Part shown: piece after piece, positions 9,238 to 56,705 of the stretch
Layout: each line of letters opens with the position of its first letter
Position numbering within the stretch: position 1 is the stretch's first letter
DNA from: a virus
DNA length: 64,000 nucleotides
Strand: one strand, 5' to 3'
Virus record (IMG/VR): IMGVR_UViG_3300030101_004160
Location: 774-64,773 of that record
Position numbers and translations under genes: made by a program
The notes under the pieces: generated by a model
What the model saw: only the letters and a program-made list of their open reading frames with translations
The model's database searches: none
Told to the model about the DNA's origin: nothing

Positions 9238-9243
9238 ATTTCT

Positions 9244-10809
9244 TTAATTATTTTTGTTTTGTAACCCTTGAAAAAACTTTCCTGCTGCCGTATAATCAAT
9301 AGGATTTACTTGATTTATTTTATTTGTATTTGGGTTTGCGCCAAGAAAAGTGTTTACTATAGCTCCCACGTTTGTTTTTTTCAAACCAGACAAAGCGTTT
9401 GTAAATGCTGCTGAAGTAAATTTTGCAGCTGCTGATTTATTAGCTTCTTGTCTTTTTATGTCTTCTAGTCTATCTTGTTCTGTTTTTTGTATATCAAAAT
9501 TTTCTTTAAACAGCATCATTTTTTCATATTTATCTGCATTTTTTCTTTGTATCTCATTGTCTCTTACCGCAAAGTCTAATAAGGCTGAAGACCTTTGTGC
9601 GTCTAGCACTCCTGATTGCGCTAGAAACCTAGCCCTTTGCCCAGCTGATCCTCTTACCGCGTTTTCTAAGCCTATTTGATAACTCTTATCTAACTCTTTT
9701 CTAAATGCAACCTCTTCATCTGGATGAAATCCTTGTTTTGCTAATTCTTTTGTTTGTCTTAAATGCTGCATAAATGCTGGAGACAACTCTGGCCTTGCTT
9801 GTGGCTCTATTTGCTTCATAGCTGCTTTTAACCCTTTTTTACCCATAACATATGATATTATAGCTCCTGGGCCTCCTATATTATCTATAATAGAAGCAGC
9901 TCCTTGTAACAAAGATTTACCAGCATTGCCTATTGTTTTTGCTCTATTTTGTGGCGTGTCCTCAACCTTTTTTTGTTTAGTTACTACTGTCTTATCTGTT
10001 CCAGTACCAGCGTCAATGTCTACAGTATCAGGAATAGCGTCTTCATCTTGATCTATAATAGGTTGTTCTCCTACTGGCCGTACATCTTCTCTTTCATCTA
10101 AAGGAAGTGTTGGCTGTTCAGTAACTACTTCTTCTTCTTGTGGAAAATAAATAGACCTAAATTTTTTTACTTTGTCTTCAGGTGCAAATTTTAAAAACCC
10201 AGCTAGAGTCCCTCTACCCTCATCAGTTAGCGGTAATTTGTTATCTATTATTATATCAATAGCTTTTGTGCTGTCTAAAGCGTTAATAGCATCCTCATCT
10301 AAAGGTATTGTTTTGTCACCTCCCTGAAACCTTTCTGTTATTTGTTCTAAAGTTATATCTTGATTGGGTAGTTCTGTTCTTTCTGGCACCGAGTCTTTGT
10401 GTTTAGAATATAAGTCTGCTACATTAGTAAACAAAGATGTTGTAATAGACCCTTGTTCGTCTCTTTTTATTTTTGAATACTCCCTACCCTCGTCAATTAA
10501 ATCTAACTCTAGTAAAGACTTGTTAGGATTTTCTTTTCTTAATTCATCAAACCTATCTTGTAATCTCTGCTGGCCAGTAAACTCTCCTTTCAATGTAGTC
10601 TCTATTCCAGTTTTGTATATCTGCTCATATGCAGATTCAAGTAAATCTAAATCAGCAGAATCTTTGTATTTTTTTATAATTTTTTTTAATTCAACTACAG
10701 TATTTCCTTTTTCTCCTGTAGTAACCCAGCCTGAACCTGTAAATCTTCCAATAGAGTCAAATAACTTTTGGGCATCTTTTTTTGCTATTTCTTTAGTTAT
10801 TTCCGCCAT
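9244..10809 (-). CDS. putative internal virion (ejection) protein, 521 aa
   Basis: No named family recognised. The N-terminal half is highly charged and helical, the centre (about residues 225-290) is acidic and linker-like (PTLPLDEREDVRPVGEQP, then IDQDEDAIPDTVDIDAG), and a Gly-rich segment (about 295-330) precedes a long Gln/Arg-rich helical C-terminal half. It shares a one-base start/stop overlap with the upstream 381-residue gene, so the two are probably translationally coupled. The helix-linker-helix composition and position among tail and giant genes match proteins ejected from the capsid in podoviruses. That function is inferred. Confidence 0.45.
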   Translation of the reverse strand: MAEITKEIAKKDAQKLFDSIGRFTGSGWVTTGEKGNTVVELKKIIKKYKDSADLDLLESAYEQIYKTGIETTLKGEFTGQQRLQDRFDELRKENPNKSLLELDLIDEGREYSKIKRDEQGSITTSLFTNVADLYSKHKDSVPERTELPNQDITLEQITERFQGGDKTIPLDEDAINALDSTKAIDIIIDNKLPLTDEGRGTLAGFLKFAPEDKVKKFRSIYFPQEEEVVTEQPTLPLDEREDVRPVGEQPIIDQDEDAIPDTVDIDAGTGTDKTVVTKQKKVEDTPQNRAKTIGNAGKSLLQGAASIIDNIGGPGAIISYVMGKKGLKAAMKQIEPQARPELSPAFMQHLRQTKELAKQGFHPDEEVAFRKELDKSYQIGLENAVRGSAGQRARFLAQSGVLDAQRSSALLDFAVRDNEIQRKNADKYEKMMLFKENFDIQKTEQDRLEDIKRQEANKSAAAKFTSAAFTNALSGLKKTNVGAIVNTFLGANPNTNKINQVNPIDYTAAGKFFQGLQNKNN

Positions 10810-24643: not shown

Positions 24644-26182
24644 TTACGATGCACTTAAGATACCACAAGACAATGGGTTTCTAACAATGATTCCAGTTTC
24701 TGAAAGCACGTGTGCTTCAAATTTGTCATCAGCATTAGCAGCCAATATTGCTTGTTGGTCATAAGGATTCACCATTCCAGCTACATACTTCTTGATCATA
24801 CTTCTGTTAACTCCTTCAGCTCCTTTTGTAATTAACTCTACGTTAGATACACCAGTAGACTTACCGAAGTCCATAAATACCATCTTTGCAGATTCTCTTA
24901 ATCTGTTGTCACCAAATGAATTAGTTCCACCAGCTACAGAATGCAAGTTAGGATCATCAAACACAGGGCAGTGAGCAATAGTAATTTTATTACCTAGCGC
25001 GCTGTATGATACGAAGTTAGCTCCTAAGTCAACATCTCCATTTACACCTGACATAGATCCTCCTGTAAACGCGCCCGCAGGTGCAACAATAAGATCTTTC
25101 ATAGCTCTATGGAATGCTAACCTACCTTCAGTTCCAGTAAATACAACAAACTCATTTCCTTCAGCTGATTGTGTATTTAATGAAATTTTAGCAATAAACT
25201 CAGTAATGATATCCTCAGTTAATGAACCATAAGAGTAAGTTGCTTGGTTAGCAGAATCAATCTGAGCCAATAAACCATCTCCTGTAATAATTGATGAAGC
25301 TTGAGTTCCTGAAGTACCTAGTGCAGAAGAAGAATAAGCTCCTGGTCTCTGAATAGTTGTGTCAGTTACCGACTTTCTTCCGTACCATCTTTGCAATTCT
25401 TGTTGATACATAAACTCATCCATCATCATTTGTTCTCTTGTAAAGTACCATAATCTTGAACCGTTATTTTCAATCCAAGTTACATCAGTAAGGTCTTTAC
25501 CTGTAACAGAACACTTTTTACGCATTGTAGTCAACCAGTTAGTATGCGTTGCAGGGTACATAAAGTTTTCACCCACATCAGCACCGTCTGATCCATTAGG
25601 GAATGCAGAACCAATAGATGCTACTATAGCTTCGTCAGCAATATCACTTGGTAATAAAGCCTGTGCTGTTGCGTCTATCATTTCAAATTGTATGATATGA
25701 TCTGTTGCAGCTCCACTTGAAGAAGTGTTAGCTACTGGATCAGCAATAACGATTGCTGTAGCTCCAGATTGGAATCTAACCATATCAAATTTATTTAAGA
25801 AGTTACCTGTTCTATCATTAGATCCAGTATCACCTTCTATAATTAAGAAGAACTTATCACCATTAGCATCTGCATCATCTATTGTTCCGCCTGTTGCAGT
25901 AACAGATCCAGAAGCTGTAAATGAAGTTCCATTAGTTGAGAAAAACCCAACATTAAAACTTGGACGATTATATCTTCCCATAACCTTCCATTCAAAAGAG
26001 TTGTCACCTAAGACTTTCTCTGTAGCGAAACGACCTGTTCTTTCTAAAAGATATGTCGCCGCATAACGAGGAAACTGTTGAATAAGCGTTCTTGCAATCT
26101 CTGGGTATTGCATAAGTGCTGTATTCAAAGCATTCTCGGCTGTTGTTCCAGAACCATAAGTTCCTTTAAATAATTTAGCCAT
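24644..26182 (-). CDS. major capsid protein (HK97-fold expected)
   Basis: 512 residues. The N-terminal region (TALMQYPEIARTLIQQFPRY then LLERTGRFATEKVLG) is followed by an Ala/Gly/Thr-rich body and repeated order of beta and helical segments, as in the large capsid proteins of crAss-like and Cellulophaga podoviruses. Position is decisive: portal, acidic scaffold, this gene, then decoration-like genes, all co-oriented. The gene has the most regular, fully spelled codon pattern of the window and is flanked by a leader and hairpins, consistent with high expression. No prohead-protease gene was identified nearby. Confidence 0.75.
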   Translation of the reverse strand: MAKLFKGTYGSGTTAENALNTALMQYPEIARTLIQQFPRYAATYLLERTGRFATEKVLGDNSFEWKVMGRYNRPSFNVGFFSTNGTSFTASGSVTATGGTIDDADANGDKFFLIIEGDTGSNDRTGNFLNKFDMVRFQSGATAIVIADPVANTSSSGAATDHIIQFEMIDATAQALLPSDIADEAIVASIGSAFPNGSDGADVGENFMYPATHTNWLTTMRKKCSVTGKDLTDVTWIENNGSRLWYFTREQMMMDEFMYQQELQRWYGRKSVTDTTIQRPGAYSSSALGTSGTQASSIITGDGLLAQIDSANQATYSYGSLTEDIITEFIAKISLNTQSAEGNEFVVFTGTEGRLAFHRAMKDLIVAPAGAFTGGSMSGVNGDVDLGANFVSYSALGNKITIAHCPVFDDPNLHSVAGGTNSFGDNRLRESAKMVFMDFGKSTGVSNVELITKGAEGVNRSMIKKYVAGMVNPYDQQAILAANADDKFEAHVLSETGIIVRNPLSCGILSAS

Positions 26183-26267: not shown

Positions 26268-27323
26268 TTACTCGCTCATGAACGCTTTTGGATCAAACTT
26301 ACTAGACTTCACTTTGAAGTTAGCTTTGCCCTTTCCAGTGTTAAGGCTTGGCGAGACTATGCTATCCATAATAGCGGCTTTGCCGTCTTCTAAACCTTGA
26401 GAACGAAGAATTTTTTCAATTTGCTTACGATAGAGCATAAACATAGCAACATCCGCAACATTGGCATGATTTGCATATATTTCATTCATCATATCGCCTG
26501 TAGCATACCGATATACTTCTTCTTTCTGTTTTTTTGTAACCTTACCGCCCATGAATTCGTTCATACCTTTGATTTGATTTTTTAATTCTTTTTTTGCTCT
26601 TTCTGTTTGCTCTTTTCTTTCTTGTGCTGCCTTTTTTTCTTGTTGTTTTACTGCAGTGGTCTGCTGATCTATTGCGTTATTTATTGTTCTTCTGATGCTT
26701 TTAGCTTTCATTTTCATCATGCCTGAATCCTCTAACTTGTCTAGTGATTCTTCTATTTCTGAATCTTCAATACCGTCTGCTTTTAATTCTTCAGCTACTA
26801 AATCTCTGTCAGAAAAGTTAAGATAAGTTCTTAGCTCCGCTACTTGATTATTGACTGGCGCTTGCTCTTGTTGAGCTTGCTGTTGTAGTTTTTCCGTGTA
26901 AGAATTTAGCGTATTAACAAACTCGTCTCTTGAGTTTATCTCTATACCTAATTCTTTACCTACCTTAGCCCAAGTAAGAGCCTCTTCAGTTGTTGGTGCT
27001 TCTTCTTTTGTTTCTCCAGCGCCTTCCCAGTCATAGTCTTCTTCTTTTTCCGCTTGCTCTTCCTCGGTTTTACTATCCCAAGACCAACCCTCTTCTTTTT
27101 CTTCCTCTTCTGTCTTTTCTTCAGTCTTTTCTTCTGTTACCTCGTCAACTAATTTAGACTCTTCTGCTTCTTCTGTTTCTTCTTCTTTTTTTTCATTGTT
27201 TACCCCATATGTATCGCTAGCAAACGCAAGAGGATTAAAACTATCTTTATTTTCTGTAGTTTCTTTTGTTGATTCTGTTGTGTTTTCTACAACTTCATCT
27301 ACTAATTTTGATTCTTCTGCCAT
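26268..27323 (-). CDS. capsid scaffolding protein
   Basis: 351 residues, extremely acidic in the first 130 (long Glu/Lys/Thr tracts), with a duplicated ESKLVDEV segment at residues 4-11 and about 55-62, then coiled-coil helices rich in Gln, Lys and Glu. The C-terminus (about 320-351, NTGKGKANFKVKSSKFDPKA) is basic, as in scaffolds that dock on the capsid inner wall. It lies between portal and major capsid genes, the standard scaffold slot. No protease motif is seen, so it is a scaffold rather than a protease-scaffold fusion. Confidence 0.65.
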   Translation of the reverse strand: MAEESKLVDEVVENTTESTKETTENKDSFNPLAFASDTYGVNNEKKEEETEEAEESKLVDEVTEEKTEEKTEEEEKEEGWSWDSKTEEEQAEKEEDYDWEGAGETKEEAPTTEEALTWAKVGKELGIEINSRDEFVNTLNSYTEKLQQQAQQEQAPVNNQVAELRTYLNFSDRDLVAEELKADGIEDSEIEESLDKLEDSGMMKMKAKSIRRTINNAIDQQTTAVKQQEKKAAQERKEQTERAKKELKNQIKGMNEFMGGKVTKKQKEEVYRYATGDMMNEIYANHANVADVAMFMLYRKQIEKILRSQGLEDGKAAIMDSIVSPSLNTGKGKANFKVKSSKFDPKAFMSE

Positions 27324-27377: not shown

Positions 27378-29687
27378 CTATAGCTTTTCTGCTGCTCTTT
27401 TGATGTCTGCTGCTGTTGTTCCTGCGCCTTTTGCAACCGCCGCGCTATCTTCTTCTTTTTTAGCGTCTTCTTCTCTATTTTTTCTATCTATGTAATAATC
27501 TGCTGCTTTTTTATCCATATCTAAACGCTGTTTAGTATCATGCATATCTCTATTAGCATCTGCCTGAATTTTAGCAACTTCAAGTCTTGAATTAGCGCTT
27601 ATCTCAGCCACTTGTAATTTGCCTTTATTTTCTAACTCTTTAAGCTGTGCTTCGGCTTGGAATTTTTGTTGAGCTGCTTCAGCTGCCGCTTGTTGGGCCT
27701 GCACCTGCTCTTGCATTTTTTGCTGTTGTTGTTTTTGCATTTCAGTCATAGCTTGTTCTAAGACTTTTTCTGCCTCAGTCATGGTGTCTGACTTAAGAAC
27801 TTTAATTACACCTAACATATCTATATTTCCTGCCTGTAAGGCTGCTTGTGCTAATTGTTGTACTACTTGTTTCATAGAATCATCCTTACCACTATCTCCT
27901 ACATAAACACCAAAATCTTGTAAAGCAATATCAGGCATAATATTTAAAAATTTATAAGCTCCATCTCCTAAAATCATACCAGCTTTCTTACCTCCTGCCC
28001 AACAAACTTTCATAAGATTACATACCCTCTCCATTACTCTTTGTTTTGTTTCTGAGTGCGAATAAAACCAACTTTCGGTAATAGTTGCTGACTGAACAAC
28101 ACTTCTTTGTACATTACCAACGTATTCATACTGACCAACAGCCCCTTCTCTTTGTCTTGACACTCCAGATATCTGTCCTGCCATTTCTTCCAACATTAAT
28201 TTTAAATTAATTAACTGCTGTACAGATTGTGACAAAGTAAAATCTATCTGCTGGAACTGATTAAAAGTTTGTATTTGGTTTCCTTCATCTTTAGAATTTA
28301 TAGGTATTATACCGTCTGTTTTTAAGTGATAAAGAACTTGCTGTATGTCCATACCTACATTAGTTGGTAATTGTGAAACATCGTAAACTACCGCCTTACC
28401 ACCAGAACGAGCCATAGCTAATTCTATTTGATAAACCACTATGTTATACAGCATTTGTATGTTGTCTAACATGTCTACCATAGACATACTATTTCCTGTT
28501 GTGTTATTATGTATACATCCCACGTATGATAAACCAGTTTTTCCTGGATCATCTACGCTTCTTACTTGGTTGTCTCTTCTGTTTGCGTTTACAAGTATTT
28601 TTCCGCCTATCATTGTTGCCTCCCATATATCATCAACCCATTTTGTTTCTATAGTCTCCCCTTTTCTTGGCTTGTAAGTATCTTTTACCATTTTTCTAAA
28701 AGGTTTATTTGGGTTGTATTTGTTTTCAGATAGTTTAAATTTAATTGCACGTAAAGATTTCCATTCTGCTGTTAAAACTCTAATTCTTGACTCTTTTCCG
28801 TGTGAAACATCTACCCATTCAAAAGTGCTGCTGTTGTAGTCAGACAAATCGCCACCATGGTATAAGTTTCTCATTTTATCTAGCTCCATTAAATCATCGG
28901 TTGTCAGGCTATCTTTAAATTCATCGTTTATTTCGTTCAGAGAAAGGTATCTCTCTTCTCCAACCCAACAAGCGTCATCAAGATAGTCTGAATGTATAGA
29001 ATCATCGTAAACTATAGTTCTAGGGTCTACTCTTCTTACAAAAGGATCTCCATTTTGTATATCAACTTTATAAAATGATTTACCTGTTACTAACAAATCT
29101 CTGAAGCCCTCTTTATAAACGTCTTTTAAATTATATCTATTTGTAACATACTCTAATCCGTCTTGTGCTGTTTCCTCTACCATTTCACGGTAGTTATATT
29201 TCATATACGTTTCTATATCCTCTGGTATAGGCAACCCTGAGTCGCCCTGAGCCACAATGTCAAAACTCATTTTTTCTTTCATCTCTTTGTGAAATTCATC
29301 TAACAAGTGATGCATCATTAATTTTACTTTATGATCATGTTTTCTTATAACCGCAGATTTATTAACTGTAGTTACCTTCATATCTAAAGGTCTTCTTAAT
29401 TCTTCACCTACAAGTAAGTCTATTTTAGGTGTGATAATGGGATAATTAACCAATCTAGCTGGATATGTGAGCCCGTATTGCTCTGTTATGTATTTATAAT
29501 CACCTTGACTTAAAATACCATTATATATTTGGTAGTTTCTTATATCTTTAGATCTTGAAGTGGCGTAAGAACCACCTTCAGCGCCCATATAGCTAGTTAT
29601 AGCTAATAATACTGATCTACACCAATCTTGTGTTTTTTCGTTCTCTGGCAAAACCATTGAAGGCATTGTGCTGTACGTATATTCCAT
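27378..29687 (-). CDS. portal protein
   Basis: 769 residues. The N-terminal third carries the portal-like core LVNYPIITPKIDLLVGEELR, a conserved segment VTGKSFYKVDIQNGDPFVRR with VDPRTIVYDD, and a long helical region near 440-520 (MLDNIQMLYNIVVYQIELA). The last 130 residues form a Gln/Ala/Lys-rich coiled coil, matching the barrel or crown extension of large portals. It sits directly after the terminase gene (4-base gap) and before scaffold and capsid, the canonical packaging order. It forms the dodecameric ring at the capsid vertex through which DNA is packaged. Confidence 0.8.
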   Translation of the reverse strand: MEYTYSTMPSMVLPENEKTQDWCRSVLLAITSYMGAEGGSYATSRSKDIRNYQIYNGILSQGDYKYITEQYGLTYPARLVNYPIITPKIDLLVGEELRRPLDMKVTTVNKSAVIRKHDHKVKLMMHHLLDEFHKEMKEKMSFDIVAQGDSGLPIPEDIETYMKYNYREMVEETAQDGLEYVTNRYNLKDVYKEGFRDLLVTGKSFYKVDIQNGDPFVRRVDPRTIVYDDSIHSDYLDDACWVGEERYLSLNEINDEFKDSLTTDDLMELDKMRNLYHGGDLSDYNSSTFEWVDVSHGKESRIRVLTAEWKSLRAIKFKLSENKYNPNKPFRKMVKDTYKPRKGETIETKWVDDIWEATMIGGKILVNANRRDNQVRSVDDPGKTGLSYVGCIHNNTTGNSMSMVDMLDNIQMLYNIVVYQIELAMARSGGKAVVYDVSQLPTNVGMDIQQVLYHLKTDGIIPINSKDEGNQIQTFNQFQQIDFTLSQSVQQLINLKLMLEEMAGQISGVSRQREGAVGQYEYVGNVQRSVVQSATITESWFYSHSETKQRVMERVCNLMKVCWAGGKKAGMILGDGAYKFLNIMPDIALQDFGVYVGDSGKDDSMKQVVQQLAQAALQAGNIDMLGVIKVLKSDTMTEAEKVLEQAMTEMQKQQQQKMQEQVQAQQAAAEAAQQKFQAEAQLKELENKGKLQVAEISANSRLEVAKIQADANRDMHDTKQRLDMDKKAADYYIDRKNREEDAKKEEDSAAVAKGAGTTAADIKRAAEKL

Positions 29688-29691
29688 AATT

Positions 29692-31509
29692 TTAATTTAT
29701 TTGTGTAGGTATTCCGTTATATCCCATTTTATAATACCTAAATCCTATATCTTTTATCTCCTCATCTCTTTCGCTTACTTGCATTCTATAATTATCTATG
29801 TTATGTATTAAACAAAGTCCAAACGCAATAGCGCGGTCAGTATTCTGTAAGCCATAATTAGCTAATTCATCTATTAAATCCAAGAACCATATATCTTCGG
29901 CGCTTTCTCTTAAATAATCATCTATTAAATCTTCCATTAATGCCTTTACTTGTTTGTTCATATGCACACCATATCTGTTTCTTGTTTTTGTACCAGGATT
30001 ATGTGCGCTCTCTGGCTTGTGTTTTAGGTACTTCAACGCATTCATACGTTTAAAATAGTCTAAAATACCTATCTTTGTATATTCTACTAGCATTTTTGCA
30101 TTATAATAAACTGCTAGCTTCAAACAACCGTCCCAAAAATCTTCTTTTTTTTCTGGTCTATCTGTATATTCTGCAATTACGTAATCGCTTGACATTTCAG
30201 TATTTGCAAATCTACGATAAATTATTGCACTACCCAAAGAATCTGATGCTCCAGCCTTATCTTGATCATAAGAGTCAATACCGCCTATGTCTAAATTTTT
30301 ATAGTCCAGTTCTGGATGTGCTAAAATTTTGTACGGTCCATTTGGATCTGGCCTCCATCTTACAGTAGGCTCTTCTTCTCCTAGCTCCCACTCTAAATAT
30401 CCTTTTTGTATTTGACTTCTATGATCTTTACTAGACAATATTCTTGATCTTTGTGCGTTAAGTAAAGATATGTCAAATCTTGCCGAATGGGTATTTAAAA
30501 AAGCTTCTTCTATTGTAAGAGGATAGTTTTGTATGTGCAGATTGTACGCTTCATTGTCCCCACTTACTTGTATATCTTCTCTATCATTTATTAATTTTTC
30601 TTTAGCAGCTTTTTCGTTTTCTTTACCATTTTCTATATCAAAAAAACCGTAATAAGCTCTAGATGCTGGTATAAACATAGGTATTAGATTGTAAGCGTCA
30701 TGACTGTAGTACATGTCCATAAAATCTTTACTTGCTTTAGATATGTCGCCACCTGTTCCTCCAACTATAGGTATTCCAAATTGCAAATCACCATCCATAA
30801 AACAAGCTTTGGAGGACATGTAAGCGTTCTTAAGCTTTTTAAACTCTCCAGCTTCTTCAAACACCATCAGCGATACCCTTTCTCCTTTAAATACTTCTGG
30901 ATTATCCATCGTCCTGCAGATTATAGTAGATTGATAGCCGCCTATCTCCCACTTACCATCTTTATTCTTTTGTTTATATCCAGAACGCATAATACCGTCA
31001 GTGTCTTTTAGTACTGAATGTTTAAAGTTAGGATGTATACCGTTTAATCCTTTTTTAGTTTTGTCAAAGAACGCATCTGCCGTTGCTTGTAGTCCTGCTG
31101 CCACACCGACATCATTAAACGGAAAGAAAGTGTATTCGTGTGCTACCGCTCCAGAATTCATGTAAGAAAAGCCTTTATCTCTGGCCTTAATAACAATCAT
31201 TCCTTTACCCTCAGCTTTACAAGTTTCTATGGTATCAAAATATTCATGGTCCATAGCTCTATACCAGGGGTGTATCAATGTTTTACGATTACCTGACGTA
31301 CCGTCATTACCTAATATCTTGTAATAGTTTAAATAAAAATAATACTTACCAGATATTTTTTTCATTCCTTTAGGCTTGAAACCCTCTATACATCTTTGTG
31401 TCTCTTGAGCCCAATACTCTTGATATGCAACTGAATCTGTATTTAAATCTGGGTGTCCATTGTTAGGTACAGGTCTGTATTTTTGTGGATTAAATTTAAT
31501 TTTACCCAT
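29692..31509 (-). CDS. terL: terminase large subunit
   Basis: 605 residues. An ATPase domain is visible: the Walker-A-like loop IVIKARDKGFSYMN at about 105-118, Walker B SLMVFEE at 213-219 with the catalytic Glu, and a following GGTGG coupling-type motif. The C-terminal nuclease domain starts near residue 405 with IGGIDSYDQDKAGASDS, whose first Asp is the expected metal ligand. The Walker A departs from the GxGKS form (Lys is displaced, GFS replaces GKS), a variant I associate with crAss-like terminases. It is the motor and headful nuclease for DNA packaging. The start at 31509 overlaps the upstream gene by 8 bases. No small subunit was recognised. Confidence 0.85.
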   Translation of the reverse strand: MGKIKFNPQKYRPVPNNGHPDLNTDSVAYQEYWAQETQRCIEGFKPKGMKKISGKYYFYLNYYKILGNDGTSGNRKTLIHPWYRAMDHEYFDTIETCKAEGKGMIVIKARDKGFSYMNSGAVAHEYTFFPFNDVGVAAGLQATADAFFDKTKKGLNGIHPNFKHSVLKDTDGIMRSGYKQKNKDGKWEIGGYQSTIICRTMDNPEVFKGERVSLMVFEEAGEFKKLKNAYMSSKACFMDGDLQFGIPIVGGTGGDISKASKDFMDMYYSHDAYNLIPMFIPASRAYYGFFDIENGKENEKAAKEKLINDREDIQVSGDNEAYNLHIQNYPLTIEEAFLNTHSARFDISLLNAQRSRILSSKDHRSQIQKGYLEWELGEEEPTVRWRPDPNGPYKILAHPELDYKNLDIGGIDSYDQDKAGASDSLGSAIIYRRFANTEMSSDYVIAEYTDRPEKKEDFWDGCLKLAVYYNAKMLVEYTKIGILDYFKRMNALKYLKHKPESAHNPGTKTRNRYGVHMNKQVKALMEDLIDDYLRESAEDIWFLDLIDELANYGLQNTDRAIAFGLCLIHNIDNYRMQVSERDEEIKDIGFRYYKMGYNGIPTQIN

Positions 31510-31720
31510 ACTTTAATTTTTTTGACTTACCTAAACCAAAAGGCCCAGCATTAAGTTCTTTTCTTTCTTCTTTTTCAAAAAACCTTTGTCTAAGATCTAC
31601 ATTATGCAACTTCATAGCCATATCATTATATTGATTTGCTTTTTCTATATCTAAAGCTTTATATTTTTTTTTATAAGAATCATATAAATATTGCAATGTA
31701 TACTTATTTTTTTTAGCCAT
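31502..31720 (-). CDS. small charged hypothetical protein upstream of terminase (72 aa)
   Basis: Basic and helical with a Tyr-rich N-terminus (YTLQYLYDSYKKKYKALD) and a C-terminal FGLGKSKKLKYG. It overlaps the terminase start by 8 bases and abuts the upstream gene (stop and start share one base). The position immediately before the terminase large subunit is where small terminase subunits often lie, but 72 residues and the sequence do not let me assign that role. Confidence 0.45.
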   Translation of the reverse strand: MAKKNKYTLQYLYDSYKKKYKALDIEKANQYNDMAMKLHNVDLRQRFFEKEERKELNAGPFGLGKSKKLKYG

Positions 31721-32052
31721 TAATCTAATTGTCTAAACAGGTTACTCGGCATTTTACCACCATCGGCGCACTTCCATCTTCTTCTAGCTTGTCTTATTCT
31801 AGAATTTGGATCGTTTTGCGTTTTTTTACTACTTCTTTTTAATTGACCCAAACTTCTAGCGCAGTATGACTTTCTACGTTTTGCGGCTTTACTTCCTGGT
31901 TTAACCTTGCCTGTTACAGCAGTTTTAAGTTTTGAACCAGGATTTTTAGCCCTATAAGCCTTTACGCCTTTTTTGGTCATTCCTGCGCCTTTTTTAGTAG
32001 GTCGGTAGTTACCACCTTTACCAGTAGTTCTTCTGATGGTTTTTTCCGCCAT
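31720..32052 (-). CDS. small basic phage protein with C-terminal FRQLD tag (110 aa)
   Basis: Strongly basic, with the phrases GAGMTKKGVKAYRAKNPGS, VTGKVKPGSKAAKRRKSYC and RQARRRWKC, a widely distributed small-protein family of marine phages (I recall a DUF assignment but am not sure of its number). The pattern suggests nucleic-acid or DNA-packaging association in the virion. It ends FRQLD, a tag nearly identical to the tails of the next three upstream genes. Start and stop codons overlap its neighbours by one base. Confidence 0.6.
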   Translation of the reverse strand: MAEKTIRRTTGKGGNYRPTKKGAGMTKKGVKAYRAKNPGSKLKTAVTGKVKPGSKAAKRRKSYCARSLGQLKRSSKKTQNDPNSRIRQARRRWKCADGGKMPSNLFRQLD

Positions 32053-32510
32053 TAGTCTAATTGTCTATAAGTTCCAGCATTACCTTTTTTCATTTTCATA
32101 CCCATACCAGCTTTTTGCATAGACATACCATTTAGCATTTTACCACCGCCAGCATAATTCATCATGTCTTTTTTCATACCCATTTTCATTCCACCTGGAG
32201 CTTTTTTCATTTTACCACCATACATCATGTACCCCATGTTGTTTCTTACGTCAGTAGGAAGCTTTGCTAATCCTGGATTTTTTTGTTTGTCAACTGGCTT
32301 TAAGTTTTTACCACCCATAGCCATATTTTTCATCTTCATCCCATAAGCAGCTTTTGGTTTAGTGTGAGTATATCCCATTTTATCCATTCTATTGTGATCT
32401 GCCATAGTGTTAGCTTTGTACCCTTTTCCAGTTTTTGGATCGTACATCATGTGCGGCTTGAATGGTTTTGCCTTACCACCTTTTTTGTACATTTTCTTTT
32501 TTTTCATCAT
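32052..32510 (-). CDS. Met/Lys/Gly-rich low-complexity protein with YRQLD tag (152 aa)
   Basis: About 27 of 152 residues are Met, with many Lys and Gly, in recurring GGKM, MGMKM and GMKM phrases; predicted disordered and very basic. No family recognised. It ends TYRQLD, matching its neighbours. It is the third of four consecutive small basic genes upstream of terminase. A structural or DNA-condensing virion component is plausible but unproven; the Met density is exceptional. Confidence 0.55.
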   Translation of the reverse strand: MMKKKKMYKKGGKAKPFKPHMMYDPKTGKGYKANTMADHNRMDKMGYTHTKPKAAYGMKMKNMAMGGKNLKPVDKQKNPGLAKLPTDVRNNMGYMMYGGKMKKAPGGMKMGMKKDMMNYAGGGKMLNGMSMQKAGMGMKMKKGNAGTYRQLD

Positions 32511-32526
32511 TTTTTTAAATTTTTAA

Positions 32527-32784
32527 TTAATCATGTTGTTTATAATACTTACCTCCTTTCTTATATTTGCTTACACGACCTTTTTTGTTTTTTTCTCTTG
32601 CAGCTGCACGTTTTTCGCCAGCCGTTAATTCTGACCAAGTCTTTGGTGTATCTTTTGTTATTTTTTTTGTAGGTCTAAAAGTGTTTTCACCACCACTATA
32701 ATCTTTTTTACCAGAAGGGGTTCTCCAATCTTCTTTAAACCATCTTTTTAGGGCTAGACCTTTTTTTGTTTTACGTACTGCCAT
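32527..32784 (-). CDS. small basic phage protein with YKQHD tag (85 aa)
   Basis: The start at ATG 32784 is chosen because it lies one base after the upstream stop; a longer reading to 32835 would overlap that gene by 50 bases. The sequence has KRWFKEDWRTPSGKKDYSGG, FRPTKKITKDTPKTWSELT and KGRVSKYKKGGKYYKQHD, a conserved small-protein layout found in marine phages and large viruses. It is very basic, with no Cys ligands. The C-terminal YKQHD parallels the neighbouring tails. Function unknown; a virion DNA-binding role is inferred from charge and operon. Confidence 0.55.
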   Translation of the reverse strand: MAVRKTKKGLALKRWFKEDWRTPSGKKDYSGGENTFRPTKKITKDTPKTWSELTAGEKRAAAREKNKKGRVSKYKKGGKYYKQHD

Positions 32785-32785
32785 A

Positions 32786-33004
32786 TTAATCGTGTTGATA
32801 TATTTGACGTCCGCACTTATCAAAAGAGTAAGCAAACTTACCTCCTGTTTTATATTTCATTCCGCTAGCACCTTTCTTTTTACTTTTGTTTCCCCAGTTG
32901 GCAGCTCCAACTTTTCTACATTTGGCCATAGCCCCGCTTCTATACGCTGAGGTTTTTGGTCCGTATCTAGCAACTACTTTGTGATAACACGCATCTTTTG
33001 GCAT
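32786..33004 (-). CDS. small basic phage protein with IYQHD tag (72 aa)
   Basis: It carries DACYHKVVARYGPKTSAYRS followed by GAMAKCRKVGAANWG, a conserved small phage-protein signature with spaced Cys residues (positions 5 and 29 of that core, plus a C-terminal Cys). Basic and soluble. It ends CGRQIYQHD, sharing the tail of the next three genes. Function unknown; the co-conserved cluster upstream of terminase suggests packaging or virion interior. Confidence 0.6.
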   Translation of the reverse strand: MPKDACYHKVVARYGPKTSAYRSGAMAKCRKVGAANWGNKSKKKGASGMKYKTGGKFAYSFDKCGRQIYQHD

Positions 33005-33015
33005 AACTTTAATTT

Positions 33016-33549
33016 TTAATTCATTTCTTTAATTTCTTTCCTTCTTTCCAAAAACGACAGACCTTTGTTTCCTACTATCTGTTTTCTTTCTCCTCGTCTG
33101 TCAATTGCGTCCAACAATGATTGTCTTGTTTTTAATATTTTTTCTACACCTATCATAAGTTTTTGTAACATTTCTGCGTTTTCTTCATCAAGGTGCATCT
33201 TATCTATGAGGTTTGTAAACTGATTAATTTTATTGTTAAAGGCTAAAAGTTGTTCGTCTAACGGATCAAATTGTAGCTCATTATATTTTTCTGCTGCTGC
33301 TTTCAGTGTAGCATCCTCGCTTCCCTTCCATTTATACGTATCGTACAAATCTTTAGACACAGCTTTTATTCTTTCTGCTTCACTGTAATGTCTATATGGG
33401 CTTTCGTAGTCGTAGACTAACGCAACCCATTTGAGGGCCGTAGGCCCGAACTTTTCCTTATGGATAAGTGATAAAAATTCTGGCACGGCAGTTACCCCGT
33501 CATCATCCCTAAATATGTCTCCCTTTTTATTTAATTTTAACAAATACAT
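33016..33549 (-). CDS. hypothetical packaging-region protein (177 aa)
   Basis: Helical and charged. The centre includes LVYDYESPYRHYSEAERI, and residues about 90-150 form a coiled coil (LLAFNNKINQFTNLIDKMHL). I recognise this only as a type often seen upstream of terminase in Bacteroidetes phages, not as a named family. It overlaps the upstream gene by one base. Confidence 0.45.
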   Translation of the reverse strand: MYLLKLNKKGDIFRDDDGVTAVPEFLSLIHKEKFGPTALKWVALVYDYESPYRHYSEAERIKAVSKDLYDTYKWKGSEDATLKAAAEKYNELQFDPLDEQLLAFNNKINQFTNLIDKMHLDEENAEMLQKLMIGVEKILKTRQSLLDAIDRRGERKQIVGNKGLSFLERRKEIKEMN

Positions 33550-33818
33550 TATTTCGTGTATTTTAATTTTAATCTACAAACATATCTTAATTCATCTATA
33601 CCTTTCTTGCTATCGTTAACTATTGTCTGAATGTAATAATATGGATTATCTTCCATGTGCCAGCTAGATTTTACAACCTTAAAGCCATATGATTTTGCTC
33701 TCTTTTTAATTATAGGCTCTTCATCAATTAATTGTCCTAGTTTTTCATATATTTTTTCTAGATAATAATAATTATCTTTCGTATATACCTTTCCTAAATC
33801 TTTGTCTATTTTTTTCAT
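33549..33818 (-). CDS. hypothetical protein (89 aa)
   Basis: A basic protein with helical N-terminus and beta C-terminal half (SSWHMEDNPYYYIQTIVND, then RYVCRLKLKYTK). No signature recognised. It overlaps upstream by 4 bases and downstream by one, so it belongs to the same transcript. Confidence 0.4.
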   Translation of the reverse strand: MKKIDKDLGKVYTKDNYYYLEKIYEKLGQLIDEEPIIKKRAKSYGFKVVKSSWHMEDNPYYYIQTIVNDSKKGIDELRYVCRLKLKYTK

Positions 33819-34492
33819 TTTACTAATGAAGTTTGTTTAGGTCCAAATATAATATTTAATATGTTATTTTCGGTAGGTAATTTATTAATATTATTACTAT
33901 CTGATAAATAAGGGGCTGTATTCTCTTTAATCATTAATTGTTCTTTTTTTTCTTTTAATGCATCAGTAGAATCTTTAGCTATTATGTTTTTATTAAACAG
34001 ATCATATTTTTCTTGCGGCTTGTCTTTACCAGCCCAGTGATACTTAAACCAAAAATCTGTAATTGATTCTTCTCCAGACCAAACTTTACTAAAGTTAGCC
34101 TTGGGGTGCATTCTATGAAAACCTAAGAATAACATTTTTTGTTGATCTGGACTTAAGTCTTTTACATCAACACTTTTAGATTCTTTACTACCAAGGCTCA
34201 AATCTCGCAACCAGTTAGGTAAAGGTAAGTTTTTTTCTTTAAAGTAATTTACAGTTCTGTTAACAGCTGTGTTTCCTCCTTTCTTCTCTCCCTTCTCAAA
34301 CATAAACAAACCTCTTCCTGCTCCGTCTTTTTTACCATCATCTGTTATTTGTACTGCGTTAGGTTTCATTCTTTGCTCTGCTCCTGTTTCGTGGAAAGCA
34401 ATATAATCCATTAGTTTTTCATATTGATCAGGCGTGCCTCCTTTGTCTCCAATGATTATTTGTAGTAATTCGTTATAATTTATTTCGTCCAT
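33815..34492 (-). CDS. putative lysozyme/transglycosylase-like virion protein (225 aa)
   Basis: Residues 30-75 contain YIAFHETGAEQRMKPNAVQ followed by GRGLFMFEKGEKKGG, the arrangement (early Glu, then a Gln or Phe-Glu strand and a Gly turn) seen in small phage peptidoglycan hydrolases of marine phages. The rest is helical with Trp-rich segments (FWFKYHWAGKD). Most likely it opens the cell wall locally during DNA entry; a purely structural role is the alternative, since catalytic residues cannot be proved here. It overlaps both neighbours by 1-4 bases. Confidence 0.45.
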   Translation of the reverse strand: MDEINYNELLQIIIGDKGGTPDQYEKLMDYIAFHETGAEQRMKPNAVQITDDGKKDGAGRGLFMFEKGEKKGGNTAVNRTVNYFKEKNLPLPNWLRDLSLGSKESKSVDVKDLSPDQQKMLFLGFHRMHPKANFSKVWSGEESITDFWFKYHWAGKDKPQEKYDLFNKNIIAKDSTDALKEKKEQLMIKENTAPYLSDSNNINKLPTENNILNIIFGPKQTSLVK

Positions 34493-35634
34493 TAAAATCT
34501 GCCTCCGTTTGTAAAGTTACGTTTTTTTATTCTTCCTCCGTTTTCCATTTTTTGCATAGCCATAGAATTAATAGACTCTTGTGAAGCCTTACTGAATATA
34601 TTGCCTATTTGTTTCATGGTTGCTGCTTCATTTATAAGCTGCATCATGTCCTTTCCGCTACCAAACTTCATTCCCTCTTCAGCATAATCTAACTCTTCTT
34701 CAACATTTTCTGTTAAATATGGATTAGGTTTATTTCCAACAAAATCTCCTTGGTCTATAATAGGCTTATTTGTTTTTCTAATATCTAATTTGGGTTTAAT
34801 TCCTGAGGCTACAGTTGTTCTAGGCGTTCCTTCTACTTGTCTTTGGCTTTCTCCTCTTTGTATTTTTTGTGCTTGTGGTGTCATCATCGGCCCAGCTGAA
34901 CCTTCTCCTCTACCCATAATTAAATTCATTAAAGGGCTTACAGTCATATCAACTACAGGTCTAACGATATTTTCTGCAATAGGTCTAGCAACTGCTTCAA
35001 ATGCTGGCATTACTACATCAAAACCAGCGCTTTTTACTAAATCAGCACCACCTCTAACACCTTGATCTATTACGTCAAGTCCTGCCTCTACTCCTTGACC
35101 AGCTACATCAACAACAGGAGCTACTACATTTTCAACTACATTACCAGCGGCATCAAAAACAGGCTGTGTTATTGGGTTAACAACATTTGCTGCAGTACCA
35201 AGAACGTTTCCTGCTACATTTCCTAGACTTCTTACGAATCTCCTAAAGCCTCTAAAGTTTTCACGTAGTCCTGTATACGGGTTAATAGTACCACTACCAC
35301 CCATAGCTCTTAACATATTTGCTTCTTCTGGTGTAACATGGGCTAGTTGCGTGTCTCCAAACCTACCAAGACTAGCTACCTTTTTATATTCAGCTGGAGA
35401 TAATTGACCACCTTTATTAAAACTTGTAACATTTTTATCCATATAAGGATTTAGTCCTATCAATCTATTAGCATCCATGTTTCCTTCCAATGCTTCACTA
35501 CCACCACCTGTAGTACCCATAGCTCTATTGCTTTGTGATATAGTGTTTAGATTTGTAAATAAAGATTGTAAGTTTTGTTCATCTGACATATTAGTAGATG
35601 ACATCATGTTGTTTTGCATATCTGGAAAGGCCAT
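34492..35634 (-). CDS. putative virion structural protein (380 aa), first late gene
   Basis: Gly/Asn/Met-rich with a hydrophobic Val/Ala region (about residues 135-245: repeats of ENVVAPVVDVAGQG type) that may be membrane-active. The phrase LAHVTPEEANMLRAMGGSG then INPYTGLREN is a conserved signature I associate with marine phage virion proteins. The C-terminus is basic (KKRNFTNGGRF). It is the first gene of the minus-strand late block, beside the divergent control region, so its start may be driven by the -7 box at 35665-35672. Confidence 0.5.
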   Translation of the reverse strand: MAFPDMQNNMMSSTNMSDEQNLQSLFTNLNTISQSNRAMGTTGGGSEALEGNMDANRLIGLNPYMDKNVTSFNKGGQLSPAEYKKVASLGRFGDTQLAHVTPEEANMLRAMGGSGTINPYTGLRENFRGFRRFVRSLGNVAGNVLGTAANVVNPITQPVFDAAGNVVENVVAPVVDVAGQGVEAGLDVIDQGVRGGADLVKSAGFDVVMPAFEAVARPIAENIVRPVVDMTVSPLMNLIMGRGEGSAGPMMTPQAQKIQRGESQRQVEGTPRTTVASGIKPKLDIRKTNKPIIDQGDFVGNKPNPYLTENVEEELDYAEEGMKFGSGKDMMQLINEAATMKQIGNIFSKASQESINSMAMQKMENGGRIKKRNFTNGGRF

Positions 35635-41537: not shown

Positions 41538-41767
41538 ACTATGATAAATGGAAACTGAGTAACCCAGTAGATGATGGTTACGGATACGACATGGTAAGTA
41601 GTTGCTGTGGAGCAAACTTGTACAATCATGATGATACAGACGAGTGTGATATTTGTTCTAATTGCGATGATGAATGTGAACCTATAGAAGACTACGAGTA
41701 CAAAGCTATACAAAGAGAAAATTATTTGGAAGAAAGAGCAGATGCTAGACGAAAATATGGAGAATAA
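41534..41767 (+). CDS. small acidic zinc-finger protein (77 aa)
   Basis: Residues 23-49 carry SSCCGANLYNHDD followed by CDICSNCDDECEP, giving CC...CxxC plus CxxxC, consistent with one zinc ribbon. Very acidic. It resembles the small zinc-ribbon proteins common beside replication genes in phages; no target is known. It ends four bases before a TATATTTG promoter box. Confidence 0.55.
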   Translation: MNYDKWKLSNPVDDGYGYDMVSSCCGANLYNHDDTDECDICSNCDDECEPIEDYEYKAIQRENYLEERADARRKYGE

Positions 41768-41770
41768 TTA

Positions 41771-41778
41771 TATATTTG
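41771..41778 (+). promoter_or_regulatory. TATATTTG -7 box for the helicase gene
   Basis: A perfect TATATTTG, 21 bases before the helicase ATG at 41800. A -33 TTG at the expected distance is not evident. Confidence 0.5.
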
Positions 41779-41799
41779 TCAGTTCAAACGAAAACCAAC

Positions 41800-43089
41800 A
41801 TGACTAATTATGATATAGCACAAACTCTGCTAGGTAAACTTATTGTAGAGCCAAAACTAATAGGTAAGTACCAACAACTACTACATAAAGATTTATTTGA
41901 GTGTGATATGCATCAATCTGTGTATCACGCTCTTATAAATTTACATGAAAATAATAGAACAATAGATTTATTATCAGTTTCAAAATTAATAAAAGGGGAA
42001 AACATTGTTCTTGAATTGTCACAAATGACAGATAAGGCATTTGATTTTACAGAAGCATTTACCTGTATTGGTGTTCTTACAGAAGATTTTCAAAAAAGAG
42101 TATTGTTTGGTATTGTACATGAAGTTAATAATCAATTAAGCAATCATGAAGAATTAGAGCTAATAGTTGGAAAGTTAAGTTCTGAAATGTCAAAATTGCA
42201 AATAGGACAACCAGAACAACTTGGAAATATACAAAAACAAATTAAAGATTTCTTACAAGATGTTGAAACAAGAATTAATACAGAGGGTTTACTTGGTATT
42301 TCATCTGGTTTTAGAGATATTGACAGGTTTACTGGTGGTTGGCAAGAAACAGATTTAATTATAGTTGGTGGGGCATCATCTATGGGTAAGACAAGCTTTG
42401 CGCTTGCTCTTGCCTATAATGCTGCTTTGCGCACAAACACACCTACTGTAATTTTTTCATATGAAATGTCAGCACTACAGTTAATTAGACGTTTAGCTTC
42501 AATGGAGTCAGAAATAAGTAACAAATACATAACAAATGGCGCTTTAAATCAAGACGAATTAAAAAAGATACATGAATCTATTGGAAAAATAGAAAATATA
42601 CCAATAAATATAGACGAAGGTAGTCTTACATCATTGTCTTATTTAGTTCACAGAATTAAAGAGTATGTAAAAACAAAAAAAGTTAAATTAGTAATGGTAG
42701 ATTACTTACAGTTAGTTAGTTCAAAAAATAAAGCAGGAAGTCGTGAACAAGAAGTAAGTAAAGTGGCAAGAACATTAAAAAATTTAGCAAAAGAGTTAAA
42801 TATTACCGTAATTGCGTTAAGTCAATTAAATAGAGGTGTGGGTATGCGTAATAATAGCAAACCAACACTAGCAGATTTAAGAGAATCAGGTGAAATAGAA
42901 CAAGCAGCAGATATAGTTATGCTTATTTACCGACCTGAATACTATGGAATTGAATTTAATGATGACGGAAAAGAAAGTAAGGGCACTGCCAATATAATAT
43001 TTGCTAAGGGCAGAAATATTGGGGTAGGTGAAGTTACTTTAAGATTTAAAAGTGAAATAACAAAATTTATAGATTATGAAAAAATATAA
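41800..43089 (+). CDS. dnaB: replicative DNA helicase, DnaB family
   Basis: 429 residues from ATG 41800. A TTG eight codons upstream (41776) would put the start inside the promoter box, so the ATG is preferred. The N-terminal domain (NYDIAQTLLGKLIVEPKLI) is the DnaB N-terminal helical domain; a linker leads to the RecA-like domain with Walker A GASSMGKTSF at about residues 191-200, motif SYEMSALQLIRRL and LVMVDYLQLVS (Walker B). It also has SQLNRGVGMR and ADIVMLIYRPEYYG near the end. This hexameric helicase unwinds the phage fork. No primase domain is fused. Confidence 0.9.
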   Translation: MTNYDIAQTLLGKLIVEPKLIGKYQQLLHKDLFECDMHQSVYHALINLHENNRTIDLLSVSKLIKGENIVLELSQMTDKAFDFTEAFTCIGVLTEDFQKRVLFGIVHEVNNQLSNHEELELIVGKLSSEMSKLQIGQPEQLGNIQKQIKDFLQDVETRINTEGLLGISSGFRDIDRFTGGWQETDLIIVGGASSMGKTSFALALAYNAALRTNTPTVIFSYEMSALQLIRRLASMESEISNKYITNGALNQDELKKIHESIGKIENIPINIDEGSLTSLSYLVHRIKEYVKTKKVKLVMVDYLQLVSSKNKAGSREQEVSKVARTLKNLAKELNITVIALSQLNRGVGMRNNSKPTLADLRESGEIEQAADIVMLIYRPEYYGIEFNDDGKESKGTANIIFAKGRNIGVGEVTLRFKSEITKFIDYEKI

Positions 43090-54200: not shown

Positions 54201-56705
54201 TTATCTCAATTTTATTTTCTTTTCTATTGTACCATCACTATATATATAAAAAAGTAATTTATTATTTTTTGTTTTTGACTTTCTTCCTAACACGTCAGTA
54301 ATCATTATTAATTTTTTTTCTATTACTCTTTTTAAAGGTGGTCCAGCCCAAGTTCCTTCGCAGTAATTATATGTAGCTTGACAAATAGTGTCCCATTGAT
54401 TTTCACAACAATATTCATCCACTTCTATTACCCAAGCATAACAAGGGTCGTTTAACCAGTAAGGTGTTCCTGGGCCTGTAATACACCCAGCATCGTACAA
54501 ACAAGAAACACTGTCATTAACATTTGCTTGTTCGTTGTAATTATAAGCGTTTACGTCCATACACCCTTCCACCACTGATATACACGAACCATTGTCAGTA
54601 TTAGCTGTCGGATCAAAATTGTAAGCAGAACTATCCATACAACCATAAACATAAGGAATACAACTAAAATTTTCTGTATTGGCCGCTGGATCGTAGTTAA
54701 GCATACTAGGATCAGTGCAACCGTAAATATAAGGAACACAAGAGTTATTGTCTGCATTTGCTAAAGGGTTATAGTTAAACATAGTGCTGTCAGTACATCC
54801 ATATACAAAAGGTATGCAATTTCCATTGTCAATATTAGCTAATGGGTTGTAATTAAAAGCAGTTGCATCCATACATCCATATATTATATCTATACAACTT
54901 CCGTCATCTACATTAGCTGTTGGATCATAATTAAAAGCGTCTGAATCCATACAGCCGTATATGACCCCAACACAACTACCATCATCAGTGTTTGCTATAG
55001 AGTCATAATTTAACGCAATCGGAGATGTGCAACCTTCTATTACTGGTATGCATGTGTCTGCTGTGTTTGCATTAGGATTATAATTGAAAGCTAAATCGTT
55101 CATACAACCTAATATAACAGGTATACATCCGCCATTATCAAGATTTGCTGCAGAATTATAGTTAAAAGCTAATTCGTCTGTGCACCCCCATATCGCTTCT
55201 GTTTCGCACGACCCATCATTATAGTCTGCTGTATAACCTTGCGTGTAATACTGTAAGTATTGTGGGTCTGTACAACCAGGATTGTAATAACAACTTCCAT
55301 CAGAAGTATTAGCGTTAATATCGTAGTTGTATGCATAAAAATCCATGCACCCATAAACATATGGATCACATATGGTAGGACAATTAGGTAATGTTATATA
55401 GTTATCTGGAAATAATTTAATTCTATTATTCCAGGGGTTTGTCCCACCTGACAATATAATATTGCCTTCTGGGTTTATTAATTTAAACCCTACTTGATCA
55501 ATAGTAGCGTCTGAACTTGTTTGGCTGTAAGCTCTTACAGTTACAGGGTGATTAGATTTTAAATTTAAATTAATAATCTCAACAGAAGAACTTATATTGG
55601 TATATGGCCCATATGTATTTCCAAGTTGAGACAATACTATATAAGCGCCATTCCATCCATCTCCACCGCCATCAGTTAAATGGAGCGAATAATTACAACT
55701 GTCTTCCATAAGAGGAACATTAGCTGCAGGATCAAAATCAAACATAGTTGTATCCATACAGCCTATTACTCTAGGTGTTGTACATAAGGCTGGGTTCATT
55801 ATGTCTGCGGCTGGATTAAATTCTAAATACCCTGGGTTTGGACAGCCTACAACAGGTATCCAACTACAATCTTTCATAACAAACAAGTCTGATGTGTCTG
55901 CGTCACCAAAGTTCAAATTATCACCAGGCGTTAAACTGTATATTGTGTCACCGCATTCATCTGTAATCATCACTCTTCCGTCTATACCTCCAAAACAAGA
56001 CCCGCATATTCCGTCTCCGTATGAGTCGTATATTATAAACTGAACTGTATCATCAATCGGAACACATATTGTTTGACTATATATATTTCCTGAACCTGTG
56101 CTTGAAAAAAATCCTTGTGGTAAAAACAATAAAGAACTATCATTTTGGTTTACAATACGCATAGAAGTTTCGCTAGCATATGTATCTGGCGTAAACTCTA
56201 TTGTAATAGAAGTATTTGTACTGTCTTCACAATCATCTTGTGGAGGTGGTATAGCTAAACAAACATCTGGCAAGTTAGCTAAAGGATTATAATTGTCAAA
56301 GAATGGATCCATGCAACCCTCTATACAGGTAAATTCATTAGCAAATATCGTGTCAGTAAAACTACTATCATTCATTTCTAATACCACCCAAAAACCTTCT
56401 GAGCTAGCAAAAGGATCGCCAGGACTATAATTATTAATAAACATATAGTTCGTGTCTAACTGATTACTCCAATTCCAAGAGTATGTATTATATGGCGTTC
56501 CTCTGTGTATGGTTTGTATTGCGCATCCACTATCTAATGCATTCCACTCCATCCAAGTTCTAGCGTAACCAAACATGCATGTGTCTTTTACTGTTAAGTT
56601 TGGAGCACAATTAGGCTGCGGAGATTGTTGTGCAAGGAGAGCGTTCAAGCCAAAAACCAAACACATCAATAACACATATACAAATTTTGAAATATCTTTT
56701 TTCAT
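54201..56705 (-). CDS. secreted multi-repeat surface protein with T9SS C-terminal sorting domain
   Basis: 834 residues. A signal peptide (FVYVLLMCLVFGLNALLAQ, cut after Ala) is followed by a lectin- or CUB-like N-terminal part with DSYGDGICGSC (about 227-237) and DGGGDGWNGAY (about 345-355), then eleven 26-residue Cys repeats (452 to about 739; GCxD, FNYxPxAN, DxGSC), a CC-WD-C module (YCCENQWDTICQATYNYC, 765-782), and a C-terminal segment 791-834 with KKLIMITDVLGRKS and LLFYIYSDGTIEKKIKLR. That ending matches the type A T9SS sorting domain of Flavobacteriia. All features are those of host surface proteins, not of phage virions. Probably exported to the host surface; target unknown. Confidence 0.85.
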   Translation of the reverse strand: MKKDISKFVYVLLMCLVFGLNALLAQQSPQPNCAPNLTVKDTCMFGYARTWMEWNALDSGCAIQTIHRGTPYNTYSWNWSNQLDTNYMFINNYSPGDPFASSEGFWVVLEMNDSSFTDTIFANEFTCIEGCMDPFFDNYNPLANLPDVCLAIPPPQDDCEDSTNTSITIEFTPDTYASETSMRIVNQNDSSLLFLPQGFFSSTGSGNIYSQTICVPIDDTVQFIIYDSYGDGICGSCFGGIDGRVMITDECGDTIYSLTPGDNLNFGDADTSDLFVMKDCSWIPVVGCPNPGYLEFNPAADIMNPALCTTPRVIGCMDTTMFDFDPAANVPLMEDSCNYSLHLTDGGGDGWNGAYIVLSQLGNTYGPYTNISSSVEIINLNLKSNHPVTVRAYSQTSSDATIDQVGFKLINPEGNIILSGGTNPWNNRIKLFPDNYITLPNCPTICDPYVYGCMDFYAYNYDINANTSDGSCYYNPGCTDPQYLQYYTQGYTADYNDGSCETEAIWGCTDELAFNYNSAANLDNGGCIPVILGCMNDLAFNYNPNANTADTCIPVIEGCTSPIALNYDSIANTDDGSCVGVIYGCMDSDAFNYDPTANVDDGSCIDIIYGCMDATAFNYNPLANIDNGNCIPFVYGCTDSTMFNYNPLANADNNSCVPYIYGCTDPSMLNYDPAANTENFSCIPYVYGCMDSSAYNFDPTANTDNGSCISVVEGCMDVNAYNYNEQANVNDSVSCLYDAGCITGPGTPYWLNDPCYAWVIEVDEYCCENQWDTICQATYNYCEGTWAGPPLKRVIEKKLIMITDVLGRKSKTKNNKLLFYIYSDGTIEKKIKLR
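54489..55352 (-). repeat. eleven tandem 26-codon Cys repeats
   Basis: Coding repeats of about 78 bp in the T9SS-type gene, each encoding GCxD, FN[YF][DN]P.AN and D.[GN]SC or variants. Three further diverged units lie upstream in the protein (around residues 130, 287 and 315). The copies are diverged in DNA, so an expansion is old. The second unit is the most degenerate. Confidence 0.8.

Follow-up and report, generated by a model that had tools for sequence, protein, structure and literature searches.

A C-terminal Gln-x-Asp tag shared by unrelated small basic proteins of a marine crAss-like phage lineage: a possible address label for head cargo

At least ten unrelated families of small basic proteins encoded by one lineage of uncultivated marine crAss-like phages end in a common short tag, Gln-x-Asp, which follows the protein from site to site and is absent from the homologues of these proteins outside the lineage. 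The sequences lead us to propose that this tag may serve the lineage as an address label that directs small basic cargo to the forming head, a reading to which we assign a probability slightly above one half. The window analysed here is a stretch of 64,000 nucleotides (positions 774 to 64,773 of IMG/VR record IMGVR_UViG_3300030101_004160) from a marine Crassvirales phage with a crassvirus capsid and a crAss-like terminase and portal (PHROGs).

Sequence sampling

Eighty relatives of the terminase were fetched, and 61 loci (the window included) contain both of the anchor genes listed in Table 1. Small ORFs at the terminase site were picked by their Lys/Arg/Gly content and not by the tag. The within-family counts took in all homologues of genes A, B, D and family E, whatever their ends, provided that the terminase was at least 79% identical or the anchor genes were present, and a family-blind scan for end patterns was run over 2.9 million viral contigs. 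A per-position substitution ratio was not used as evidence of amino-acid constraint because it is partly circular, the sequences having been chosen by tag. A search of the phage collection with the terminase found no close member of the tagged lineage, and a search for the host through genome contigs found no terminase relative.

The tagged genes and their genomic setting

Adjacent genes A, B, C and D on the minus strand of the window terminate in IYQHD, YKQHD, YRQLD and FRQLD, respectively (Table 1). All four ends are as described in an earlier sequence-only reading of this DNA, and the sharing extends further than was noted there. The matches of gene B to DUF5872 (49.1 bits; gathering cut-off 27.5) and of gene D to DUF6321 (46.8 bits; gathering cut-off 28.5) reach the Pfam thresholds; for gene C, searches of Pfam and PHROG gave no match. 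Homologues of gene B point to the ATG at 32784 as its most likely start, rather than the TTG at 32835. Genes A, B and D are mutually non-homologous by Pfam and PHROG models, and in phrog_727 the A-like and D-like domains occupy separate positions of one longer protein. No credible solved structure was found for any of these three.

Table 1. Tagged genes, their tags and neighbouring reference genes in the window
Feature	Position	Strand	Description	Match or remark
Gene A	32786..33004	minus	72 aa, PKDACYHKV domain, end ...CGRQIYQHD	phrog_727, E 9e-15
Gene A tag IYQHD	32789..32803	minus		stop TAA 32786-32788
Gene B	32527..32784	minus	85 aa, DUF5872, end ...KKGGKYYKQHD	Pfam PF19197, E 1e-12
Gene B tag YKQHD	32530..32544	minus		
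Gene C	32052..32510	minus	152 aa, Met/Lys/Gly-rich, repeated GG motifs, end ...GNAGTYRQLD	
Gene C tag YRQLD	32055..32069	minus		gene C stop overlaps gene D start (TAATG)
Gene D	31720..32052	minus	110 aa, DUF6321, then 15-aa extension ADGGKMPSNLFRQLD	PF19846, E 5e-12
Gene D tag FRQLD	31723..31737	minus		
Downstream anchor gene	31502..31720	minus	72 aa, helical, conserved, untagged, end ...KYG (LKYG)	
Upstream anchor gene	33016..33549	minus	177 aa, conserved, untagged	structural relatives in gut crAss-like phages
Terminase large subunit	29692..31509	minus		phrog_6681, E 2e-92; crAss-like matches
Crassvirus major capsid protein	24644..26182	minus		PF23898, E 1e-38; fixes the lineage

The cassette does lie upstream of the terminase, as first reported, but a fifth small gene, the untagged downstream anchor, separates gene D from it. 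This 72-aa gene has a kept end of its own, ..[LI][KR]YG. The 177-aa protein of the upstream anchor is predicted to be all-helical, with modest confidence (pLDDT 72); a fold search gave no PDB match at E < 0.001, the relatives being uncharacterised crAss-like phage proteins only.

Elsewhere in the window, a large variable upstream protein (34492-35634) has its own conserved end, [YF]TNGGRF, in many relatives. The 225-aa gene at 33815-34492 encodes 550-955 aa at the same site in four relatives (L169, L173, L177 and L182) by way of added C-terminal sequence, and an 834-aa protein (54201-56705) with about ten repeats of GC[MT]DxxAxNYNPxAN is kept in relatives within the lineage. A short plus-strand ORF (41691-41807) over the start of a DnaB-like gene also ends in QHD and is probably a chance ORF. 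A putative scaffold gene lies at 26268-27323.

Conservation of the tag

Of the 61 loci, 25 have nothing between the 177-aa and 72-aa genes; the others have small basic genes or a few large unrelated ones there. The gene sets at this site vary: they comprise A-B-C-D, or family E (GLYANIHAKRKRG) with or without D, or families F (MFRKLRRK), G and H. Every distinct small ORF between the anchors (56 of 56) ends in Q-x-[D/A/S/R], and 50 of them end in Q-x-D. When the homologues of A, B, D and E within the lineage were surveyed, Gln was found at position -3 in all 65 and Asp at position -1 in 55, the remaining ten having A, S, N or V as the last residue. All 13 homologues of gene A end in Q-x-D, as do 14 of the 17 homologues of gene B, with QH[NAV] in the other three. 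That otherwise different small basic proteins share a selected tag is thus strongly supported. The consensus originally given, [YF]-x-Q-[HL]-D, holds for its Gln, the only near-invariant residue across relatives, but proved too narrow elsewhere: position -1 is Asp or, rarely, A, S, N, V or R, and position -2 is H, L, Y, K or F.

Chance is ruled out by the background counts. The fetched loci contain 1,229 distinct ORFs with a length of 150 aa or more; not one of these ends in Q[HLY]D and three end in Q-x-D, so that accidental sharing by four adjacent non-homologous genes would have a probability of (3/1229)^4, or about 1e-10.

It is the amino acids of the tag that are conserved, while synonymous changes occur freely. 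Both codons of Gln, His and Asp and three codons of Leu are in use, and this freedom indicates that selection acts on the peptide. The window does contain about 20 identical bases over the stop and start at the ends of genes C and D, the kind of likeness expected if the shared ends were brief stretches of homology, or had arisen by gene conversion, and aided recombination of the cassettes. Such a cause at the DNA level is very improbable given the synonymous variation and the alternation of H, L and Y at position -2. Where tags of different families have the same peptide, 26 of 89 pairs from one locus and 1957 of 6677 pairs from different loci agree in every base of their DNA; tag DNA thus shows no greater likeness inside one genome than across genomes, and gene conversion is therefore not the cause. 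Tags also persist at sites away from the terminase, as in contig G010 described below, which further disfavours an effect on DNA.

The loci together yielded 148 distinct tagged basic ORFs, falling into 16 BLAST clusters and at least ten clearly unrelated families, and the tag is C-terminal in every case. In 118 of the 148 a Gly-Gly pair lies within 22 residues of the end. A phage protease cutting after this pair would free a Q-x-D peptide, and the targeting peptides of T4 are indeed cut by gp21 (PMC5694885). This processing signal, one of the two roles first suggested for the tag, finds little support and seems unlikely to us: Gly-Gly is absent from the other 30 proteins, the conservation falls at -3 and -1 with no single fixed cut site, no Pfam peptidase occurs among the ten proteins scanned, and the main text of the crAss001 structure paper mentions neither protease nor cleavage (PMC10172136).

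Tagged genes at other genomic sites

Two nearly whole contigs, G012 and G017, carry the tag on the small basic class only, at two or three dispersed sites. In G005, tagged A and B lie far from the terminase and tagged F and G genes lie beside it; in G010 the terminase site is empty, and tagged A, B, C and D are found at 8359-9487. The presence of tagged genes elsewhere when the terminase site is empty shows that the tag goes with the protein and not with the locus, and the additional tagged sites in these four contigs exclude a locus-bound element. A single ancestral gene was likewise rejected, since the families are non-homologous and have untagged homologues outside the lineage; within DUF6321 itself, where the tree needs about four changes of label, one origin is still statistically compatible.

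Locus L029 has seven tagged genes off the terminase site, beside a metallophosphatase gene. Untagged genes, among them holin-like, peptidase and small basic ones, stand between the tagged genes, an arrangement indicating that the tag is reserved for a selected set of proteins. G004 and G007, two possibly incomplete contigs with the same structural genes as their relatives, yielded no tagged gene. A tagged 117-aa protein in L383 (4359-4712; G012, 28358-28711) starts with the segment NEAFKQARESGVKTFMWKGKKYNT, which sets it apart from the tagged families described above; it represents a further tagged family and gives G012 a third tagged site.

Untagged homologues outside the lineage

The pattern scan returned six rows for GG-x-[FY]-[KR]-Q-H-D and 26 for GG-x-Y-R-Q-L-D. 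Of the scan loci, 27 were checked: 25 hold tagged families of the lineage described here, and two are chance matches without an ORF. Neither the 50-kb stretches of phi14:2 and cr1_1 nor the surroundings of the phi14:2 terminase contain a Q-x-D ORF.

Homologues of gene D in other phages match only up to about residue 95 and end in RWKC in pelagiphages; gene D shares more than 80% identity with untagged proteins of the pelagiphage type as far as residue 95, beyond which it carries its 15-aa tail; here the joining of a tag to an exchangeable protein can be seen directly. Family E has 13 tagged members, all inside the lineage, and 43 untagged members, all outside it. The DUF5872, DUF6321 and KDACYHKV proteins of cyanophages, pelagiphages and a roseophage are direct homologues of B, D and A, respectively, and are often encoded next to the terminase, but they lack the C-terminal tag and often form one fused chain (P-RSM4 PRSM4_120, S-CREM2 ORF160); where cyanophages fuse the domains, the tagged lineage has separate chains, each with its own tag. 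Untagged homologues in the same location, the finding that would have counted against the tag, do not occur in the lineage, but they do occur beside the terminase in roseophage CRP-7 (A, B and D-like genes directly upstream) and in the distant crAss-like phage L074, whose terminase is 23% identical and whose homologues are the only untagged ones near a related terminase. Since the homologues in cyanophages, pelagiphages, the roseophage and the distant crAss-like phage are all untagged, the tag is a lineage-specific C-terminal extension and not intrinsic to these proteins.

In eight further loci (L031, L032, L034-L037, L054 and L123) the A, B and D homologues are fused in other ways, all untagged, with B-D proteins of 179 aa, D-A proteins of 213-220 aa and one protein of 690 aa. 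In a sister marine clade (L017, L020, L021 and L022) the homologues of A, B and D are untagged, and a Met/Gly-rich protein and B share a different and weaker end motif, GGF[IL][EL]P. This motif was rejected as a general tag of the sister clade, being found on only two proteins per genome.

Proposed function

Two untagged homologues link this class of proteins to the virion. In Synechococcus phage S-CREM2, ORF137 (DUF6321, directly before the terminase) and ORF160 (a fusion of DUF5872-like and KDACYHKV domains) were detected in virions by mass spectrometry with four and seven peptides, respectively (PMC10665884). These detections point to a virion-associated class, subject to the caveat of those authors that some virion-associated proteins could be co-purified (PMC10665884). 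Comparison of the sequences shows that both proteins are untagged, so packaging of the class does not always depend on the tag. The charge of the tagged proteins and the virion data on their untagged homologues would be compatible with the suggestion of the sequence-only reading that they are packaged DNA-binding proteins.

Capsid loading is, in our view, the best-supported function for the tag, as judged from the untagged cyanophage homologues and by analogy with the logic of T4. The tag may be a targeting signal, its target may be the virion and its receptor may be a structural protein. In this mechanism, Gln-[His/Leu/Tyr]-Asp-COOH would act as an address tag at the protein level, attached in most cases through a flexible Gly-Gly/Lys-rich linker; different small basic accessory proteins would be acquired as cassette genes, each with the tag, and one common receptor would recognise Gln(-3) and the terminal carboxylate and recruit them all. 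Unrelated proteins would then end alike because a single receptor reads these two features. The destination would most likely be the forming head, reached via scaffold, portal or inner capsid surface, where the tagged proteins would become DNA-associated virion cargo. The cassettes are optional, as seen from the empty sites and from G004 and G007, which is as expected of accessory cargo. A search for the receptor through gene presence and absence was unsuccessful: no gene tracks the tag, and G004 and G007 share the structural genes. Against a loading label, some small basic neighbours in L029 are untagged, three to five residues make a very short sorting signal, and the final position departs from Asp in 10 of the 65 lineage homologues.

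The tag could instead be an assembly device, with Q-x-D docking the proteins, unpackaged, on one partner such as the terminase/portal complex or an intracellular nucleoprotein body formed during infection, and thereby uniting them in a single complex that works in DNA packaging or replication. The cassettes adjoin the terminase in the lineage, in cyanophages and in CRP-7, and the A, B and D domains are fused in single proteins in cyanophages and some marine phages and so probably work together. We consider this a less probable alternative, albeit the foremost one, in view of the lineage members in which the cassette lies far from the terminase and the virion detection of the cyanophage homologues. 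Docking on the outside of the capsid has a precedent in the crAss001 head fibres gp21 and gp29, which are described as binding hexon pockets through their first 38-58 residues (PMC10172136); that the tagged proteins similarly decorate the head surface is improbable, since strongly basic Gly/Met/Lys-rich proteins resemble partners of DNA and not fibres.

Proteases that read C-termini tend to favour non-polar ends, and a polar acidic terminus might shield unstructured basic proteins from such proteases of the host. As the reason for the tag, this would leave the near-invariant Gln(-3) unexplained and sits poorly with the untagged small basic proteins that coexist in the same genomes (L029), and we give it little weight.

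If capsid loading is correct, the tag would allow accessory cargo to be predicted from sequence alone across a widespread marine phage lineage, and proteins of no assigned function would fall into one functional class. How crAss-like phages select what they pack could then be approached simply, by deleting or transplanting about five residues, and the tag might also serve as a short peptide by which foreign proteins could be loaded into phage heads. More tentatively, a minimal Q-x-D code read by one crAss-like head receptor may load any small basic protein that is acquired; exchanging accessory cargo would then require only the addition of a short tail to a gene. Such a code would be, to our knowledge, the first C-terminal, uncleaved cargo code of its kind described for tailed phages.

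Comparison with known systems

Encapsulin cargo is recruited in a comparable manner, a short C-terminal peptide on a flexible linker bringing unrelated proteins into the shell; the shell, host and sequence all differ from those of the tagged lineage, and the likeness is one of principle only. Within the phage order to which the window belongs, crAss001 is described as storing protein cargo in both capsid (head) and tail (PMC10172136). Judged by the description in that paper, its cargo proteins gp45, gp46, gp47, gp49 and gp50 are large, and no common short tag is described for them. The precedent is found in the internal proteins of T4, diverse cargo in which only a short targeting sequence is common to all (PMC3012670, PMC5694885). 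IPI-III and Alt of the T-even phages are variable small accessory proteins sharing a short terminal sequence, and the tagged lineage presents the same picture from its genes alone. In T4 the capsid targeting sequence stands at the N-terminus, has about 10-20 residues and is cleaved by gp21, whereas the tag is C-terminal and comprises 3-5 residues, and the ten-protein Pfam scan yielded no peptidase to set beside the T4 prohead protease. By this analogy, the Q-x-D pattern would copy the logic of the T4 capsid targeting sequence.
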